A stretch of DNA of 64,000 bases, taken from the NCBI GenBank assembly GCA_027887045.1, contig JAPCJH010000002.1:62001-126000 (forward strand), read 5' to 3'. The stretch's first letter is position 1. Each line of letters opens with the position of its first letter. Below are positions 24,813 through 58,029 of this stretch, piece by piece. Source of the DNA: Nitrososphaerota archaeon. GTDB taxonomy: Archaea; Thermoproteota; Nitrososphaeria; Nitrososphaerales; Gagatemarchaeaceae. The notes under the pieces were generated by a model. It made no database searches and was not told the origin of the DNA. It saw only the letters and a list, made by a program, of their open reading frames with translations. Both the position numbers and the translations under genes were made by a program.

Positions 24813-25243
24813 ATGTGAATCATCAGCCGAGAGGTCATTCTAAACTTGGTCGGACCCGTCCCTTTCGATCTTGCTCCCCCGCGCGCGTGGAATTTTTGGC
24901 AGTCATCGCATTCTGTCTCGACGTCTCACCCATTCATTCACTCGTATTAATTGAAGAGGAACTGGGCGTATGGATTCAGGTTCTGTTAAGTGTCTGGCCA
25001 CCAGTCCAAACACTAAGCTGGATCCGGGAGACTTTCCGGCAGTCATCATCAGGTTCTTGAACCACTGCTTCATCTGAGTGCCTGTGCTGAAGTCCAGCCG
25101 AATAACAGTGCCTAGATTTCCATGTATTTTGCGCCGCAATTCTTGCTATCCAAAGATCCATTTTCGGCGGGACAGATATTTCTCGCGCTCAAGACTTAAT
25201 AACGAAACTTAGGGCCGAGACGCCAACAAAAGCGTGTAGCCTT
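24813..25243. other. Intergenic region of 431 bp between epimerase and atpI
   Basis: The interval between divergent genes holds AT-rich promoter-like stretches near 24943 and 25193 (CTTAATAACG). The only frame of note is 24903-25139 on minus (78 codons), which shows no recognisable motif, signal or neighbour coupling. I see no RNA gene or repeat. Confidence 0.4.
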
Positions 25244-43640: not shown

Positions 43641-43751
43641 GGCGCTGTAGCTCAGCGTGGTAGAGCAGCAGGCTGTTAATGCACGCTGGCAGATACCTGT
43701 TAGTGGAAATCCACTGGGGAGTGGTCGTCGGTTCGAGTCCGACCAGCGCCG
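43641..43751 (+). tRNA. tRNA-Asn(GTT) with anticodon intron and variable-loop insert
   Basis: Acceptor GGCGCTG/CAGCGCC, discriminator G at 43751. D-arm GCTC-AGCGTGGTA-GAGC is normal. Anticodon stem GCAGG/CCTGT with loop CTGTTA, a 16-nt intron (43679-43694) at 37/38, then A38. The T-arm GTCGG-TTCGAGT-CCGAC is perfect. Between anticodon and T stems are 26 nt instead of 5, with a 5-bp hairpin AGTGG-AAAT-CCACT (43702-43715). Asn tRNAs are class I, so this is an insert and not a natural long variable arm. Confidence 0.92.
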
Positions 43752-50134: not shown

Positions 50135-51175
50135 TCAGAGATAGGCTGTCTCAAACTTCGAGTAAGCTTGCTGGAAGTGAACTGGCTTCGGCGGAGCTTT
50201 GAAACCGTAACCACAGATTTCGCTCACAGCACCGTACTTCTTTGAGTGCGAAGCCGCGTAAACGGCCCTGACGACGTCGAGGAGGACGTTCCCTGCGTTG
50301 GCCCCGTCGGACGAACGCAGATAGACGTCAATCCCGACTGGCGACCTGAGAAAACCGGCCCCCTCGACCCAGAAGTAGCTCGTCCTCTCGTTCCCCATGT
50401 AGTCGACGAAGTCTGTCGTCCCTGCGACGGTCTCGAACTTGTAGGGAACCTCGGAGGAGACCGAACTCGTCTTTATCTTGCGCTTGGCAATCTTGATGTC
50501 CTCGTCGATCGTGTTGTACGTCTCGGAACCACCCCCCACGTCCAGCTGATAGCTCTTAGAGATCTTCACGCCCCTCTTAACCATCAGGTTCAGGAGCCCT
50601 TTGTGGAAGACGGTTCCTCCGAACTGACTCATCAGGTCGTCCCCCGCGATCACCAGGCCCGCTCGCTTGAACCTCTGCGGAATGCTCTTGTCCTTGACAA
50701 GGCTGGACGGCGTGCAATTCACGAACGACGTTCCTGACTTCAACGCGGCGAGAGCGTAATCCCTCGAGGACGCATCAGTGCCAGAAGATATCAAATTCAG
50801 GAGTAAGTCTGCTTCGGATTTCCTGAGAGCCTCCGACACGTCCTCTCTGGAGGAGGTCCGCTGTCTGAGGCCCGCAAGGTGGGGAGGAGGCTCTCCTTTC
50901 GAGAGCCCTGGAGTCACCTTGACCCCAGACCTGGGCACCCGAACGTATCTCCTCGCCACGTTGGGAGAGGCGAAGAGTGAGTCCGCCATGTCGAGACCGA
51001 CTTTCCTCGAGTCTATGTCGAACGCGGCAACGATTTCAATGTCGGAGGCTTTGAGACCGGAGATGGTGGGGTGCCATAGTCCCTCCTTCGAGGATCCTCT
51101 TGAGTAGAACTCGAGACCCTGCACGAAGATGGAAGCGCAATTGCCGACGCCCGCGATAGCGACTTTCACCACCAT
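50135..51175 (-). CDS. ino1: Myo-inositol-1-phosphate synthase, archaeal type
   Basis: A 346-residue NAD-dependent isomerase that turns glucose 6-phosphate into inositol phosphate, needed for archaeal phosphoinositol lipids. The NAD loop is VAIAGVGNCASIFVQGLEFYS (residues 5-25), then AFDIDSRKVGLDMADSLF, SSGTDASSRDYALAALKSGTSFVNCTPSS, IAGDDLMSQFGGTVFHKGLL, and SKSYQLDVGGGSETYNT with the catalytic-site Lys/Asp/Thr set. Length fits the short archaeal form rather than the 500-residue eukaryotic form. A two-helix membrane protein gene lies 9 bp upstream. Confidence 0.96.
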   Translation of the reverse strand: MVVKVAIAGVGNCASIFVQGLEFYSRGSSKEGLWHPTISGLKASDIEIVAAFDIDSRKVGLDMADSLFASPNVARRYVRVPRSGVKVTPGLSKGEPPPHLAGLRQRTSSREDVSEALRKSEADLLLNLISSGTDASSRDYALAALKSGTSFVNCTPSSLVKDKSIPQRFKRAGLVIAGDDLMSQFGGTVFHKGLLNLMVKRGVKISKSYQLDVGGGSETYNTIDEDIKIAKRKIKTSSVSSEVPYKFETVAGTTDFVDYMGNERTSYFWVEGAGFLRSPVGIDVYLRSSDGANAGNVLLDVVRAVYAASHSKKYGAVSEICGYGFKAPPKPVHFQQAYSKFETAYL

Positions 51176-51439: not shown

Positions 51440-51448
51440 TCGCGACCG
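51440..51448 (+). repeat. Left 9-bp target-site duplication
   Basis: TCGCGACCG lies directly outside the left inverted end of the IS6-like element and recurs directly outside the right end at 54437-54445. Confidence 0.85.
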
Positions 51449-51469
51449 GGTTCTGTAAAGTCTTTTGCA
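51449..51469 (+). repeat. Left terminal inverted repeat
   Basis: A 21-bp sequence opening GGTTCTGTAAAGTC and ending TTTTGCA. It is the exact reverse complement of 54416-54436. Confidence 0.92.
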
Positions 51470-51481
51470 AGGGATAACTCT

Positions 51482-51817
51482 TTAGTCCGTCTCTAGGTTG
51501 AGACCGCAAATATGACAAAACATTGAACCGACGATGAGGACGGTGCCACAAGTTTTGCACACATCTCCCGCCTTTGCTATGTGCAGACCCCGTTGTGTGG
51601 GAGATCGTAGCCATCCGCCAAGCTCTCTGAGCAAGAAGGCAACGGTCAATAACGGCAAGACTACCATGGCGGCAAGCAAGCCTGCTCTTACGGAAAGGTC
51701 ATTCAAACCATTGACAGCACTAAGTATTTCGCTGTCTATTACGGCCTCAAAGAAGAGAGCTAAGAAGAGAGCACCGAGGACAAGCGTCTCCCTATCAGGA
51801 AGACGTTGTTTGGACAA
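51482..51817 (-). CDS. Membrane protein with C-terminal zinc ribbon (passenger)
   Basis: A 111-residue protein with two helices (TLVLGALFLALFFEAVIDSEILS and AGLLAAMVVLPLLTVAFLL), then a zinc ribbon CKTCGTVLIVGSMFCHICG with two CxxC pairs at the C-terminus. It lies 12 bp inside the left inverted repeat. It overlaps the preceding small membrane gene by 23 bp, so the two are co-translated. I do not recognise the family. A membrane protein with a zinc ribbon tail could be part of a membrane-bound regulator or immunity set. Confidence 0.7.
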   Translation of the reverse strand: MSKQRLPDRETLVLGALFLALFFEAVIDSEILSAVNGLNDLSVRAGLLAAMVVLPLLTVAFLLRELGGWLRSPTQRGLHIAKAGDVCKTCGTVLIVGSMFCHICGLNLETD

Positions 51818-52004
51818 TGTCCTTGAGATTCTTGTAAGTGAGTAAGAACATGACTGAGGTCACATAGAAACAAGCGATACTAATGTAGACACTATCTGCC
51901 TGCACAAGGGCAGAAATCCAGATGAAGATGCCTGCGAACGCGGATGTTATCCCACCGAACAGCGAGGCCAAGACCACTCCCAAGGAATCCAGCATCTCAG
52001 ACAA
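51795..52004 (-). CDS. Small two-helix membrane protein (passenger)
   Basis: A 69-residue protein with helices LGVVLASLFGGITSAFAGIFIWISALV and SVYISIACFYVTSVMFLLTYKNL. A strong TATA (CTTATATAAAC on minus, 52031-52042) lies about 30 bp before the ATG, so the membrane pair has its own promoter independent of the transposase. Not recognised. Confidence 0.65.
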   Translation of the reverse strand: MSEMLDSLGVVLASLFGGITSAFAGIFIWISALVQADSVYISIACFYVTSVMFLLTYKNLKDIVQTTSS

Positions 52005-52030
52005 CCTGCTCCAACTCTATATCGCCTTGT

Positions 52031-52042
52031 TTATATAAGGAA
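52031..52042 (-). promoter_or_regulatory. TATA box of the passenger membrane genes
   Basis: CTTATATAAACA on minus, correctly spaced before the ATG at 52004 for a leader of only a few bases. It separates this unit from the transposase unit. Confidence 0.6.
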
Positions 52043-52096
52043 ACCGTATTTTCTCCCGTGTCAAAAGCTTTTTGTTCCATTGTAATGGAAAGCTCA

Positions 52097-52246
52097 CTAC
52101 CTAAGATTCTTCTTGATTCTTTGTTCCCATTCTTCCTGAGTGATTACGCCCTTCTCTTCAAGCAGTTCAGCCAACGAAGTAATCATGGTGTCCAGAACGT
52201 CGGTTTCATCATGTTTGGCCTTACTTTTCTTCGGCGTGTTTTCCAC
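52097..52246 (-). CDS. 49-residue SHOCT-like protein of the transposase operon
   Basis: A small frame starting with GTG, overlapping the RHH-like gene by 26 bp. The protein has a Lys-rich start (ENTPKKSKAKHDETD) and the short helical repeat ITSLAELLEEKGVITQEEWEQRIKKNL, which matches the SHOCT pattern of two short helices with a turn before a Glu-rich segment. SHOCT modules often tail other proteins and help oligomerise them. Being short, it is easily missed. It may be an accessory part of the element. Confidence 0.6.
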   Translation of the reverse strand: MENTPKKSKAKHDETDVLDTMITSLAELLEEKGVITQEEWEQRIKKNLR

Positions 52247-52391
52247 CTTTGTCCATGTAACCCTTTTCGCTTAGATAAGTCAGCACGATGAACCTGATTA
52301 TGTCTGAGTGTCCCGTGCCGAGCTTGCCCTTTAGATCGCGGTCGATAATGTCCCAAGTTTGGTCTGGCAAGGCAACGAGGGCTTTCTTCAA
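52221..52391 (-). CDS. 56-residue RHH-like protein of the transposase operon
   Basis: Starts at TTG overlapping the transposase stop in TTGA. The protein KKALVALPDQTWDIIDRDLKGKLGTGHSDIIRFIVLTYLSEKGYM has the ribbon-helix-helix order: strand ALVALP, helix TWDIIDRDLKGK, turn LGTGHS, helix DIIRFIVLTYLSEKG. RHH proteins bind DNA as dimers and here may repress the transposase or bind the ends. Similar small RHH genes accompany transposases of archaeal IS elements. It overlaps the SHOCT-like gene. Confidence 0.7.
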   Translation of the reverse strand: MKKALVALPDQTWDIIDRDLKGKLGTGHSDIIRFIVLTYLSEKGYMDKGGKHAEEK

Positions 52392-53293
52392 TTCCGAACC
52401 ACCTGCACAGCTTCGATTGACATTCCCTCGGTCGCTTTCGGCGTCGAGGCCTCAGTTTGAATAGCATTCTCGATGAGTTGCTTCCATCCTTTGACGTGGA
52501 TTCCAGCTTCTTCGGCTGGCGTTTTCCCATTCAATGAAAGGTGAGGACGAGCAAAGTTGTAATTGGCGACGTATCCGTCCAAGATGTTTCTGGCCGAGTC
52601 TTCGTTCTTGAACCCACGCATCGGTCGCACGCGTTCCTTCACTGTCTCGTGCAACCTTTCAACTATGTTATTGGTTTCTCTGGCTCTGATTCCGACCCTC
52701 TTCACCAATTCGACGTGATTGCCACCATATCGCGAGTAGAAGACTTTCGCGAAGGCTCTGTCGTAGGTCATAGAGCCATCTACGAAGATGGCGATTGGAT
52801 TCACTTTTGCTGTCTCCTTAGCCTTCTTGAACACGGCGACTGTGTCTTCAAGCGATCTTGTCCCTGACAGGTGCGACGCCACCAAGAAACGAGTGTCTTC
52901 GTCCATTGTTTCCCAAAACCATTCGTTCTGGCCGTCGCACCTAATCACGGTCTCGTCGTGGTGCCACTTTCCGCTAAGCTGGGGGGTCAAAGTCTTGACA
53001 TACTCGCTGACCAGCTTCGAGTATTTCTGAACCCAGTTCCAAATCGTCATTTGGCTTATTCGTTCTCCGAAGATGCTTTCCAACTGCCTCGACACTTTTC
53101 TGACTGATAGACCGTCAAAGTAAAGCGAGATTGCGGATACGATTACGTGTTTGTTCACCTTCATTCGCGGAAGATTTTGGTTTGCGAAGAACCTATGACT
53201 GCAGGTGACGCACTTGATTAGCTTCCTTCCGTTTACCGACCCAGCCGATTTCAGAGTGTCGGATTGGCAGTATTTGCATCTTGAGGTTTCCAT
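52388..53293 (-). CDS. DDE transposase, IS6-like, with zinc-finger N-terminus
   Basis: A 301-residue transposase. The N-terminal zinc ribbon CKYCQSDTL..CVTCSHRFF is followed by a helix-turn-helix (SAISLYFDGLSVRKVSRQLESIFG..SQMTIWNWV). The DDE catalytic core has Asp in WHHDETVIRCDGQNEWFWETMDEDTRFLVASHLSG, Asp in IAIFVDGSMTYDRAF, and Glu in NNIVERLHETVKERVRPMRGFKN. The tail FARPHLSLNGKTPAEEAGI is typical of rve-type enzymes. IS6-family placement rests on this core and on the GGTTCTGT ends. A TATA (ATATATATTGG on minus) sits at about 53316-53328 upstream of the ATG. The frame is intact, so the element may be active. Confidence 0.9.
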   Translation of the reverse strand: METSRCKYCQSDTLKSAGSVNGRKLIKCVTCSHRFFANQNLPRMKVNKHVIVSAISLYFDGLSVRKVSRQLESIFGERISQMTIWNWVQKYSKLVSEYVKTLTPQLSGKWHHDETVIRCDGQNEWFWETMDEDTRFLVASHLSGTRSLEDTVAVFKKAKETAKVNPIAIFVDGSMTYDRAFAKVFYSRYGGNHVELVKRVGIRARETNNIVERLHETVKERVRPMRGFKNEDSARNILDGYVANYNFARPHLSLNGKTPAEEAGIHVKGWKQLIENAIQTEASTPKATEGMSIEAVQVVRN

Positions 53294-53404
53294 GTATATC
53301 CCTATGGATATGCCAATATATATATCTGCCTAAATATGTTGGTAATTGCCTTCCCTTTTCGGTGGGTTTAATAGCAAGCCTGGCTCAGACATTGCCGAAA
53401 ACAT

Positions 53405-54085
53405 ATGCCAAAAGCAGGCAGATACGACTACCCATACAGAGACCTCGACGACTGCGTCGAGTTTCTCCGCAAAGCATTCGACACCAAAAAGGAATACAAC
53501 ATGAGCAGAGATTCATTCGCCACAGCGATCGGTCAATCATCAAAGGGAGGAGGGTTCAACCTTCTCGTCGGCTCACTTGCCATGTTCGGGCTTGTTGAGA
53601 CGGGGGGAGGAGAAATCAAATACACAGAGCTGGCAAAGACAATTCTATTCGGCGAACCTAACCAGAAACCGAAGGCGATGGAGGAAGCGGTTAGGAAGGT
53701 GACGGTGTTCGCCGAAGTCTTCGACAAATACGGAGCCAACTTCACAGATGAGCAACTGCGACTGTTCTTGAAGGACAAGGCAGTTGTGGATATTGCAGAG
53801 GCAAATAGCCTTGCCCAGTTGGTAGGAAAATCACTCAAAAGCCACCTGAAATATCTGACCCCCAGAGATGGGGGTGAGAAGAAACAAATGACCGACCTAC
53901 CCGCAAACACGCAAGTTGACTTGGTCATAGGCCAAGGGACGCTGACTACGTCCTTCGGAACAATCAAGCTCCTCAATCAAGCCACACTCGATTTGGCAAG
54001 AAAGCTCTTGGACGTGGTCGAGAGCCAGATGAAGGAAGAACAGAAGGCTCTGAAACCCGAACCCAAGAAAGAGACCAAGCCATAG
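53405..54085 (+). CDS. Winged-helix-like protein (passenger, 226 residues)
   Basis: A 226-residue protein on the strand opposite to the transposase. The first 80 residues look like a winged helix: CVEFLRKAFDTKKEYNMSRDSFATAIGQSSKGGGFNLLVGSLAMFGLVETGGGEIKYTELAKTILFG, with helix, wing and start of a second domain. Similar arrangements occur in DUF5343-type and restriction-linked proteins, but I cannot name a family. The middle is helical (AMEEAVRKVTVFAEVFDKYGANFTDEQLRLF). The C-terminus is Lys/Glu/Pro-rich. A TATA-like stretch lies at about 53367. It is cargo of the IS6-like element and not a known transposition gene. Confidence 0.7.
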   Translation: MPKAGRYDYPYRDLDDCVEFLRKAFDTKKEYNMSRDSFATAIGQSSKGGGFNLLVGSLAMFGLVETGGGEIKYTELAKTILFGEPNQKPKAMEEAVRKVTVFAEVFDKYGANFTDEQLRLFLKDKAVVDIAEANSLAQLVGKSLKSHLKYLTPRDGGEKKQMTDLPANTQVDLVIGQGTLTTSFGTIKLLNQATLDLARKLLDVVESQMKEEQKALKPEPKKETKP

Positions 54086-54113
54086 AGATAGCTGAACAAA
54101 AAACCTAGCAGAG

Positions 54114-54179
54114 GGGGGTCGGCACGTGCGACGCGGGGTATCTCAGCAATCCGCGAGGCCGAACCTAAGACCGACCCCC
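54114..54179. other. Structured hairpin inside the transposon
   Basis: A 66-bp segment has an outer 9-bp stem (54114-54122, GGGGGTCGG, pairing with 54171-54179) and an inner stem CGCGG/CCGCG (54132-54136 with 54151-54155). It sits between two convergent genes. It may be a stable RNA or a bidirectional stop signal; archaeal terminators are usually U-tracts, so this strong structure is unusual. Confidence 0.5.
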
Positions 54180-54184
54180 GACTC

Positions 54185-54376
54185 CTACTTTTTGTGTGAA
54201 GGGCTACCTTTTATGCTTTGGGCTTTTGTGTCGCCAGGTTCGACCAGGTCATACCTTTCATTCACCTTGAACTTCTCCTTGCATACTTCGCAGTAGTATA
54301 TGCTTGGGAGGGGAGCAAATTGGTCTGGCACATACATCATACGACATTTTGGACAAACGATGACTGTTAAGGTCAT
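54185..54376 (-). CDS. Small zinc-ribbon protein (passenger)
   Basis: A 63-residue protein with a two-CxxC zinc ribbon (CPKCRMMYVPDQFAPLPSIYYCEVCKEKF) and a short acidic/basic tail. The hydrophobic, Tyr-rich central part suggests a folded unit that binds protein or RNA. It lies next to the right inverted repeat and is convergent to the winged-helix-like gene. Not recognised. The pairing with another zinc ribbon at the left end may mean both bind one partner. Confidence 0.65.
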   Translation of the reverse strand: MTLTVIVCPKCRMMYVPDQFAPLPSIYYCEVCKEKFKVNERYDLVEPGDTKAQSIKGSPSHKK

Positions 54377-54415
54377 AGAAGAACTGGAACTAGGCGTCCA
54401 CTCTTAAATTTGCCG

Positions 54416-54436
54416 TGCAAAAGACTTTACAGAACC
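54416..54436 (-). repeat. Right terminal inverted repeat
   Basis: Exact reverse complement of 51449-51469 over 21 bp, ending CTTTACAGAACC. Confidence 0.92.
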
Positions 54437-54445
54437 TCGCGACCG
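54437..54445 (+). repeat. Right 9-bp target-site duplication
   Basis: TCGCGACCG, identical to 51440-51448, directly outside the right end of the element. Confidence 0.85.
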
Positions 54446-54456
54446 CAACTTCGCTC

Positions 54457-57400
54457 TTAGACGCTCTTCATCATTTGGAGCTTCTCTGGTAGATACGTGT
54501 CAACTATGTAGCTCAGACCGTAGCGAGAGAACGCCTCTTGCTCGCTCTTCTTCTTTATCCTGAGAAAAGTGTCGAGCTCATCGTGCCACATCTTCTCTGT
54601 GTACCTCGGGTCGGCCTTGAGCTCGTAGAGCCTCTTGATGTCGACGTCAGTGAGCTTGTCGGAGGGCAGCTTGTACTTGACTATGTCGGAGTTATGCAAA
54701 ACAAGCCCGCCGACCCCCCCTACGAAGGTGTGAACGTCTCTTACCTCAAGATCATACACGTAATCAGAGGTCTTTCCTAGATTTGTAATGCTTTTTACCG
54801 GCAAAAGCACGACGTCGTTTTTGACTAATCTGATTAGAGTTTGAAGTTTGTCACTCTCAACTTTCTCTTCGAACATTTCGAAAGCTTGCGAAAGCCGCGT
54901 ATAGCCAATCCTCGCCTTACCGGCGTTTGTGAACAGAGTACGGTGCAAGCGGCCCTTCTTGCCGTAGGGAACCAGCTTCTTCATTTCCGTTCTCAAAGAA
55001 TAGACAAGAGTGCCTGGCATGGATTTGATGTCAGAGTGCACGTCCACAGCTTTGCGGCAGAGTTCTGTGACGATGTCACTAATCGGCTGAGTATTTGCAC
55101 AAGAAACGACAAAAGCGTCTCCCGATCGCCAAACATTCGAAACACACCCGAGTTGCCTCAAAAGCACGGTGAGGTCAGAAGCGAGCATCCTGCTGACGGT
55201 CTTCAGACTCATTCTTGTGCCCACATTGTAATTTATCATTCTGTCTCCGCGGAAACAACCCCTCAGGAACTCAGTCTTGACTTCATTAGGCATGTTTAGG
55301 ATGATGAATGGAACCCGTTTGTCTCTTGCATGTTCGCCAGTGTGGAAGGCCTTCAGGTATATCGTCGCCAAGAGCTTAGCACCATATTGCACGTCCAACC
55401 GATTTTCCCTCGACCTGACTCTCCCCTTTATGCCGAAGACTTTTCTCACACATTCCAGTGAATCTTCCACATAATTGGTTTCACTTCCTCCAAAGGTGAG
55501 TTCACACGTACGGCCTCGTTGCGTTTTTCCGGTGTTACCTTCGGCAGCGTGATACCCCAATAGACGTCCGAACTCAGGAGTGGCCTCTATCGCGATCGGA
55601 ATCCTGAGAGTGGAATATCTCAATCGAAGGAATCCCTGCGAGGGCAAGATCCCTTCTTGGATGAAGTACGACAATTTTGGTGTATTTCGTCTCGCTAATT
55701 GGTAATACCGCCGACGCAATGTCTTCTGATCATATTTCCCCCTCAGAGACCTGCAGAACTCGTCAGCATCAGCGCCCTCGACGAAGAAGTTCTCTGCCTC
55801 TTCGGGACACTCTGTTGCGATGAGCTTGGCAATGTTTAGGGCATTGAGGCTTTGGTTATTTGGCACGCTGAAGCATGCCGCGACCAAGTCGCCTTCAGCG
55901 AGAGAAGAGACCTCACGAGATTCTAGAGAGTATGTTTCGGAATTGAAAACCTCGATACTGTGGTTAGTCGTGGCTTTCACATTGTAGCCACCCATAATTC
56001 GGATTTCGTAAATATCGCCGTCATACCTATGCCTTGTCATAGCTGTGAGGGGCATGATGCCGACTCGGCCATCGTGAGAACATGAAAGGGCACTGATACT
56101 CCCATCGGCGAGCATCACCGCTTCGCTATTTTCCAGCTTGGACAGACGGGGGTACAGTTGCCTGGTTTCTTCATTTCTGATCATTCCATCTAGCTCTATG
56201 ACCACCGGCTCATCACCTGTTACACTGGCATACACACCTAACCAGACAGCTTTCGGAGTCGTTAGCTCCCTCAGGTGCGCAGCGTTAGCCGAGTTATGAA
56301 GGAGAATTCCTGACCTGCCTCCGATGAATCTTTCCACTCCCGGAACTGAGACATCATAGACGTATTCATCGACTTCAGAGGTAGTTTCAATGCTGACCAA
56401 TGGGTCAAAGCTGACGTCGCCTTTCGCAAGGTTAAGGATTTGCTCAATCGATGTTCTCGTCTCTGGGGTCACTCTCCTCTGTTCGCATGTAAGAACATGT
56501 TCGAGTGTATTCACGACGCTCAATCTGTCAACTCCTCCGTCACCCCCTCTTTGAATCAGCTCGCAAATCCGTCGGTAGGTTAATTCGCACTTCACCTCGT
56601 GATGCCGATGCTCATAAATCTCCAGTCTTAGAAATGCAAGTCCGCTAGCGATTGCAGGGAACGCCTTCGCGGTGAAATCTGAGCTCTGTTGTGTGCTCGC
56701 CGCATGCTCGATGATGAAACCCTCATAATCTTCGTAGAGAACCGGTGAGACTAATTTCGCAGTTTGTGAACTGCCCGAAACTACCACGGTGATTTGGTCC
56801 TTTCCGATCGAAGGGGTGATGCTCCTCTGCGTCATCGTCCCTTGCTTCTTGGTCGAGGCATTCCTCGAAATGACCAAAAGTTCACCCTCCCTAAGGTCTG
56901 ACGTAGCTATCGAAAATATCCTGCCATTTCTGAGAATGAAAACGCTGTGGTTCGGCGTGACGATAACGGACCTTCCGCTCTGAGTGCGCAACGAGTATAG
57001 AGGCCCTCTATACAAGTGCCGTATTGCTGACGACAATGGCTTGAATTTCACATTGTACGTATCGTCAACGGTCATCACTTCGTATGGGATTGCACCGCAT
57101 ACCTCGTTCTCGAAAGAATCATTGAAGGACCCATACTGATCGATGCATTCGTCGACGAACTCGCCTATCTTCATCATTGCGACTCGGCCTTCACTGTCCC
57201 GAACGACGATAGGCTCGTCTCTCTGAACAGACCCGGATTTTATCACCATCGCGATGTGTGCTCCCCATGGATCTGCGTCACAAAGAATCCCGATCGGGAG
57301 CCCGAGTTCTTGGTTCAATCTTCGCAAGAGGTATCTTGTCGACCTCGGTGGCTGCCCCGCCGTGTTCACGAGGATTGCCTTGTGGCGCTTGTGGACCTTC

Positions 57401-58029
57401 TCTTCGACGAACCTTGTGAAGAGACCTCCCTTCTCTATCGCTAGGACCATCTCCGCGTCCGTGTTCTCGAACTCTGCCGTCGTCAGGGCGGGACCGATCA
57501 TCACGCCGTCGGGGTGGGCGGAGAGATCGAGTTTCTTCCCTTCATAGCCCGGTACTGTGTATTCGATCGTCAAGTTCCCGAAAATCGAGCTTCTTTCCTC
57601 GGGGAAGATGTTGAAGCCCTCGCGAGCCATCGACATGAGGACCTCGAGGTCCGTGATCAGTTCGTCCGATTCGGCCTGGTCCTGGAACTCCACATTGAAT
57701 GCTTGCGCCGAGTAGTAGACGTCTCGGAGGGTGGACGTCCTCTTCTCCTCCACAAGCTTCTTGGAAAAGTACGCGAGCCAGAGCAGTTGAGTGAAGGGAC
57801 GGATGTGCTTGATGTTCCCCGCCGACCTTCTGACGCTCGCCGAGCCGAGGATGAACTGCTGGAGCTTCTTGTCGTAGAGGATGTTCTTTACCGAGCGGCT
57901 TGAGAGCGTGAAACTCGGAAAGTTCCCGCTGTCCAGGTCGTCGTAGACCTTCTCCCCGAGGTCCTTCAGCAGCTTCTGGGCCGTGACCTGTCTTGCTTCA
58001 GCGGTAGTCTTCGATTTTGCTTTGCTCAA
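54457..58029 (-). CDS. top6A: DNA topoisomerase VI subunit A with two inteins
   Basis: A 1,190-residue precursor; removal of two inteins leaves 365 residues, the normal Top6A length. Top6A is the Spo11-like DNA-cleaving subunit. The catalytic Tyr lies in the N-terminal 5Y-CAP domain (STLRDVYYSAQ, Tyr105/106). The Toprim metal site is ILCDADPWGAHIAMVIKSG, which ends at residue 266, where intein 1 (267-579) begins. Then SANAAHLRELTTPKAVWLGVYA (580-601), intein 2 (602-1113), and SDIVKYKLPSDKLTDVDIKRLYELKADPRYTEKMW to the end. Both inteins use Ser as first residue and as +1 residue. The start overlaps top6B by 32 bp. The IS6-like element sits 20 bp beyond its stop. Confidence 0.95.
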   Translation of the reverse strand: MSKAKSKTTAEARQVTAQKLLKDLGEKVYDDLDSGNFPSFTLSSRSVKNILYDKKLQQFILGSASVRRSAGNIKHIRPFTQLLWLAYFSKKLVEEKRTSTLRDVYYSAQAFNVEFQDQAESDELITDLEVLMSMAREGFNIFPEERSSIFGNLTIEYTVPGYEGKKLDLSAHPDGVMIGPALTTAEFENTDAEMVLAIEKGGLFTRFVEEKVHKRHKAILVNTAGQPPRSTRYLLRRLNQELGLPIGILCDADPWGAHIAMVIKSGSVQRDEPIVVRDSEGRVAMMKIGEFVDECIDQYGSFNDSFENEVCGAIPYEVMTVDDTYNVKFKPLSSAIRHLYRGPLYSLRTQSGRSVIVTPNHSVFILRNGRIFSIATSDLREGELLVISRNASTKKQGTMTQRSITPSIGKDQITVVVSGSSQTAKLVSPVLYEDYEGFIIEHAASTQQSSDFTAKAFPAIASGLAFLRLEIYEHRHHEVKCELTYRRICELIQRGGDGGVDRLSVVNTLEHVLTCEQRRVTPETRTSIEQILNLAKGDVSFDPLVSIETTSEVDEYVYDVSVPGVERFIGGRSGILLHNSANAAHLRELTTPKAVWLGVYASVTGDEPVVIELDGMIRNEETRQLYPRLSKLENSEAVMLADGSISALSCSHDGRVGIMPLTAMTRHRYDGDIYEIRIMGGYNVKATTNHSIEVFNSETYSLESREVSSLAEGDLVAACFSVPNNQSLNALNIAKLIATECPEEAENFFVEGADADEFCRSLRGKYDQKTLRRRYYQLARRNTPKLSYFIQEGILPSQGFLRLRYSTLRIPIAIEATPEFGRLLGYHAAEGNTGKTQRGRTCELTFGGSETNYVEDSLECVRKVFGIKGRVRSRENRLDVQYGAKLLATIYLKAFHTGEHARDKRVPFIILNMPNEVKTEFLRGCFRGDRMINYNVGTRMSLKTVSRMLASDLTVLLRQLGCVSNVWRSGDAFVVSCANTQPISDIVTELCRKAVDVHSDIKSMPGTLVYSLRTEMKKLVPYGKKGRLHRTLFTNAGKARIGYTRLSQAFEMFEEKVESDKLQTLIRLVKNDVVLLPVKSITNLGKTSDYVYDLEVRDVHTFVGGVGGLVLHNSDIVKYKLPSDKLTDVDIKRLYELKADPRYTEKMWHDELDTFLRIKKKSEQEAFSRYGLSYIVDTYLPEKLQMMKSV
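54691..56226 (-). mobile_element. Top6A intein 2, with LAGLIDADG endonuclease
   Basis: A 512-residue intein (602-1113), starting SVTGDEPVVIELDG and ending VHTFVGGVGGLVLHN. Block B is ATTNHSIEV. The endonuclease motifs FGRLLGYHAAEGNT (about 820-833) and FLRGCFRGDRMI (921-932) are kept but in weaker form than usual, with Glu and Asp at the catalytic places. The large size comes from a helical stretch between blocks. Confidence 0.92.
56293..57231 (-). mobile_element. Top6A intein 1, with non-LAGLIDADG insert
   Basis: A 313-residue intein (267-579). The start SVQRDEPIVVRDSEG resembles that of intein 2. Block B is TPNHSVF and the end is GRSGILLHN. About 110-130 residues in the middle (430-560) are helical (KAFPAIASGLAFLRLEIYEHRHHEV, ICELIQRGGDGGVDRLSVVNTLEHVL) and show no LAGLIDADG or HNH motif. 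Confidence 0.9.

Follow-up and report, generated by a model that had tools for sequence, protein, structure and literature searches.

The segment at positions 51449–54436 of the 64-kb window, by which we mean the whole stretch of DNA analysed, is a complete transposon of 2988 bp that contains 21-bp inverted ends and seven genes, one of which encodes an IS6-type DDE transposase. It very probably represents an archaeal family of IS6-type unit transposons, in which a core of transposase (tnp), ribbon-helix-helix (RHH), and SH genes is accompanied by swapped cargo, tnp is repressed by the RHH(-SH) product, and mobilisation can also occur in trans. The ends and the flanking target duplication were located from the sequence as follows.

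51440–51448: left copy of the 9-bp target duplication, TCGCGACCG
51449–51469, plus strand: left terminal inverted repeat, GGTTCTGTAAAGTCTTTTGCA
54416–54436, minus strand: right terminal inverted repeat
54437–54445: right copy of the target duplication, TCGCGACCG, immediately 3′ of the stop codon of top6A

The initial annotation had claimed perfect 21-bp inverted ends with 9-bp direct repeats outside them, and both were recovered here. The terminal inverted repeats are identical at 21/21 positions (96% identity when extended to 24 nt), and the 9-bp repeat abuts both ends of the element on the outer side. When the surrounding 4 kb was subjected to 1000 first-order Markov resamplings, inverted repeats reached a maximum length of 17 nt, and no resampled inverted repeat of at least 12 nt was flanked by an 8- or 9-bp repeat. 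Each end occurs once in the 1.2-Mb assembly, where no further copy was detected within 3 mismatches. This indicates that no shorter internal pair of ends surrounds the transposase, an arrangement named initially as speaking against a single element. A DNA search gave one full copy of the element in this assembly, which is 56% complete, and, at G000:C2:234895, a remnant that matched over 155 bp in its SH region. The remnant is a decayed second element of the same genome (L051, 5743–6100; G000:C2, about 234740–235100), with an end of GGATTCTGTTAACTTCGTTGCACGG, a truncated RHH gene, and an intact SH gene. A left-end-like sequence, GGTTCTGT, at 24979 is partnerless and was taken as a chance match. 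Rfam and tRNA scans inside the element gave no matches.

The element closely follows the topoisomerase VI A gene (top6A, 54457–58029, minus strand) and lies upstream of the genes for a 76-aa membrane protein (mem76) and inositol-phosphate synthase (INO1, 50135–51175, minus strand). The empty configuration was obtained from same-family relatives at six loci (L123, L125, L126, L127, L130, and L131), where top6A is followed by mem76 and INO1 within tens of bp with no insert. It had been proposed that the same small genes, if present at this place in relatives lacking the ends, would contradict a transposon; the site is instead free of them at all six loci, which favours insertion. The reading of a single IS6-like transposon with passengers is thus upheld by the perfect ends, the duplication, and the empty configuration together. 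Separately, top6A carries two inteins (Pfam Intein_splicing twice, with one LAGLIDADG domain), and the matching parts of this gene are contiguous and intein-free in several relatives. Elsewhere in the window, a tRNA of approximately 110 nt at 43641–43751 (plus strand) has an Rfam match and no ARAGORN match, and probably contains an intron.

The core genes and the repeat in front of them are listed below, with the basis of each assignment in parentheses.

52388–53293, minus strand: IS6-type DDE transposase, 301 aa (profile matches)
52221–52391, minus strand: RHH, 56-aa ribbon-helix-helix-type protein, core gene overlapping the transposase stop (conservation, sequence pattern)
52097–52246, minus strand: SH, 49-aa helical SHOCT-like peptide, core gene (conservation, weak SHOCT match)
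53296–53311: dyad ATATCC-CTAT-GGATAT resembling an operator, positioned −3 to −18 relative to the transposase (sequence)

The transposase is intact, as had been annotated, since it scored 146.9 bits with NF033587 (transpos_IS6; cut-off 125) and 70.5 bits with PF13610 (DDE_Tnp_IS240; cut-off 27). Its N-terminal zinc ribbon consists of C6, C9, C28, and C31, and the catalytic D113, D172, and E212 are invariant among the 11 transposase copies compared. Profile matches above cut-off are shared with the IS6 family, which includes IS26, IS257, and the archaeal ISH14/ISC774 groups, as are short perfect ends with a GG tip and an internal CTGT, and the 8-bp duplications of many relatives of the window element (PMC7986276). 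The ends of the relatives start with GATTCTG, GATACTG, GATGCTG, or GGTTCTG. The differences from IS6 lie in the 301-aa zinc-ribbon transposase, longer ends, a length of 1.87–5.98 kb, the RHH-SH genes, the passengers, and the 9-bp duplication of the window element and some relatives. While an IS6 insertion sequence measures 0.7–1.8 kb and holds a transposase only, the present element measures 2988 bp and holds six further genes, so that it is an IS6-type transposon and not a typical IS6 insertion sequence. Its passengers lie between the one end pair of a single IS, which is the arrangement termed tIS. Harmer and Hall doubted that archaeal forms and those with long transposases belong to IS6, and argued for leaving them out of the family (PMC6807381).

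Searching 151 related genomes at the DNA level showed that the three-gene block, and not the transposase alone, is conserved. Protein searches located the clade in Nitrososphaerales, two Bathyarchaeota, Ca. Methanomethylicus, and further genomes of the phylum; within the order, 15 of 400 genomes contained it. Full-length copies of the clade scored at least 394 bits with the A1 model, as compared with at most 261 bits for the next family. Complete elements have perfect or near-perfect ends, and exact duplications flank 12 that bear a transposase, with 9 bp for the window element, L047, L048, L098, and L107, and 8 bp for L054, L056, L058, L059, L061, L110, and L114. Four others (L097, L111, L113, and L115) have perfect ends yet no target duplication, as is expected if copies recombined with one another. 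Carriage of the clade on viral contigs was considered and rejected, the sole matches being two remote relatives with neither RHH nor SH. The next family, a sister archaeal IS6-like one with 370–450-aa frames (L080–L092), has a homologous transposase and an RHH-type gene nearby in 6 of the 14 loci examined (L080, L083, L085, L086, L091, and L092). That gene is a different one, divergent and upstream of the transposase with no SH directly after it, whereas RHH and then SH lie downstream in the window clade.

The order tnp, RHH, SH on the same strand was found in 24/24 non-degenerate copies, and also in two copies outside the model building (L138 and L139), for a total of 26 from Nitrososphaerales, Bathyarchaeota, and Methanomethylicus; the degenerate copy L057, which retains transposase fragments only, was left out. 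Roughly half of the elements (L055, L058–L061, and L112–L117) have RHH and SH fused as a single protein, while elsewhere the two form adjacent or overlapping frames. This invariance indicates that RHH and SH belong to the core and are not cargo, and the initial annotation of a passenger gene set is corrected on this point. It had also described at least six further small genes; six do lie inside the ends, but one of them, encoding 226 aa, is not small. RHH contains the pattern R.LVSLPD...D...SE.IR, and the model of a fused relative exhibits a helix-helix after an extended N-terminus at low confidence (mean pLDDT of 67.7). Its best PDB profile match was AvtR, which we take to be an RHH protein, at a non-significant E of 0.12, and no significant match was obtained in the Pfam, PDB sequence, or fold searches, the last using the RHH-SH model. 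On the pattern, this low-confidence model, and the operator repeats described below, it is assigned as a putative RHH protein. SH has no significant match to the SHOCT domain (PF09851), which gave a lone weak hit (E 0.019) among 11 members.

The exact dyad occurs once in the window. The form ATATCC-N4-GGATAT or a close variant is located upstream of the transposase in the window element, L046, L047, and L048, and with one mismatch in L045. In the fused group, GATATA direct repeats were found instead, amounting to 30 in ten promoters as compared with 4.5 expected (maximum of 14 in 2000 resamplings), and 13 of 20 gaps between them were exactly 11 bp. Neither form was found in exact shape in L054, L056, L097, and L098. 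Phased short repeats over a promoter are typical of RHH operators. The location of such operator-like repeats at the transposase start makes RHH-SH most likely an autorepressor of the transposase, which is the best-supported role for this pair. RHH(-SH) dimers would bind the repeats over the promoter and start codon, so that tnp is repressed and transposition is kept low, and SH may serve as an oligomerisation or partner-contact part. The core operon would mobilise everything between both 21-bp ends, with the transposase acting on them in cis and on cargo-only elements in trans, probably through a replicative cointegrate by analogy with IS6. The passenger genes, several of them defence-like, would be swapped between the ends over time.

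Two other roles were considered for RHH-SH. Beyond repression, the pair could act directly in transposition, by binding the ends, choosing targets, or conferring immunity; its constant co-occurrence with the transposase and the overlap of the genes are in line with such a cofactor, but the repeats identified to date are those of the tnp promoter, the element ends not having been searched systematically, and we regard this role as unlikely. Small overlapping genes with an RHH-type product adjoining a transposase also recall an addiction pair that stabilises the transposon, given that Tn3 transposons are described as having toxin-antitoxin pairs built into their transposition modules (PMC7157771). 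Such a pair is quite improbable here, because roughly half of the elements have RHH-SH as one continuous protein, which poorly fits an antitoxin separable from its toxin, and no toxin-family matches were obtained. The remaining features of the window element belong to its cargo.

51482–51817, minus strand: 111-aa protein with two hydrophobic segments and a C-terminal zinc ribbon, CxxC...CxxC (weak zinc-ribbon matches, E 0.0075)
51795–52004, minus strand: 69-aa small membrane protein overlapping the 111-aa gene (open frame)
52030–52039, minus strand: TATA-like box CTTATATAAA, approximately 30 nt upstream of the membrane pair (sequence)
53405–54085, plus strand: p226, a winged-helix-like protein of 226 aa whose gene diverges from tnp (predicted structure, relatives)
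54096–54197: hairpin rich in GC and flanked by T runs on either side, lying where two genes converge (sequence)
54185–54376, minus strand: 63-aa zinc-ribbon protein with two CxxC (sequence)

The TATA-like box agrees with an earlier statement that the membrane pair has a TATA of its own. The hairpin is probably a two-way terminator; as a candidate non-coding RNA it was rejected, since its z of −1.84 was not significant and it was not conserved. The p226 model has good confidence over about residues 1–154, and winged-helix regulators and N-terminal parts of methyltransferases were among its top structural matches, none with E below 0.001. PADLOC gave no match for p226, and a pattern search of viral and genome collections yielded no relatives of it. 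Relatives were located in L045, where one lies beside the same core, and in L049 and L036, together with more distant ones without recognised ends. The cargo of the window element most likely serves as a passenger, for host benefit, regulation, or defence, and stands outside the transposition machinery. To name defence, regulation, or stress as its role is a guess, in which we allot defence about one third.

Two contrasting views of these genes were weighed. They might be resident chromosomal genes beside a decayed ordinary IS insertion, considering that ordinary IS6 elements usually consist of 0.7–0.9 kb with a transposase alone (PMC7986276), but this is refuted by the present results: no internal ends were found, the outer ends are perfect with a target duplication, and the junction is empty in the relatives. 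Alternatively, the enclosure of all seven genes in one end pair might suggest one system with a shared task, membrane pair included. The relatives of p226 in L045, L049, and L036 lack the other three cargo genes, neither the membrane pair nor the 63-aa zinc-ribbon gene has relatives among the fetched elements, and other elements having the same core carry unrelated cargo, which leaves one system improbable. The initial annotation had taken the membrane pair, p226, and the zinc-ribbon gene as cargo with a shared task; they do stand as cargo, but the shared task is unsupported, because p226 relatives occur in other elements without membrane or zinc-ribbon genes.

Across the family, the non-core gene content varies element by element. 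L098 carries GmrSD (HEC-06 model, E 2.6e-179) with PIN-like and UPF0175 proteins, L060 a Fic protein (SoFic model, 1.4e-115), L115 a subtilase (IetS model, 9e-39), L036 part of a DNA methylase that weakly matches Mrr, and L107 a type I specificity domain. An HATPase protein with a 108-aa partner was found in L058 (2801–4575) and L114 (6093–8034) with no PADLOC match. A C39-like peptidase with a partner was found in L055 (3471–4978) and L107 (7024–8545), with a related partner in L056 (3173–4849); this pair recurs across different archaeal phyla and is a candidate defence cassette. The term defence-like is applied to several of these genes as a description from their sequences, not as a statistic. 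In the transposase tree, neither L055 and L056 nor L058 and L114 are neighbours, although each two share cargo, which suggests cargo exchange between cores; a shuffle test of cargo against the tree, having few rows, was not significant. Four elements have family-type ends and duplications with no transposase.

L049, 2556–4903: 9-bp duplication, frameshifted p226 relative
L036, 1337–3489: 8-bp duplication, distant p226 relative and methylase
L134, 1000–1865: 8-bp duplication
L053, 5574–6274: 9-bp duplication, SH remnant

These cargo-only elements were probably moved in trans. A search of the 151 genomes with the end pattern gave matches in eight, and none with the reversed control pattern. At G092:C3:69023–69735, three family-like ends lie in a row on the same strand.

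Passenger-carrying forms of IS6 had been called less common, and the IS6 review indeed names one, ISDsp3 (PMC7986276). It shares with the window element a passenger inside a single pair of IS6-type ends, but is a single-copy bacterial example with one hypothetical gene (PMC7986276), whereas the present elements form a family that has a regulator and cargo that changes. A dedicated core with variable cargo, including defence genes, is also shared with Tn7-like and Tn3 unit transposons (PMC8649781; PMC7157771); the present elements have an unrelated core, are much smaller, and encode no recognised target selector or resolvase. The literature searched, a set exclusive of subscription papers and ISfinder, contained no description of the present family, which is apparently undescribed. 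On balance, we favour recognising these unit transposons of Thaumarchaeota, Bathyarchaeota, and Methanomethylicia as an archaeal family of their own, in which the IS6-like transposase is obligately accompanied by an RHH-SH control module, mobilises swappable, often defence-like cargo, and also drives cargo-only elements in trans. Such a family would be a small counterpart, in archaea, of the defence-carrying transposons of bacteria. In their 2019 survey of thaumarchaeal mobile elements, Krupovic et al. stated that transposons with diverse passengers were undetected in archaea (PMC6563490), a gap that this family would fill. Defence genes could also pass from one archaeon to another by this simple route, and reading the content between these ends may be a way to find unknown defence genes.
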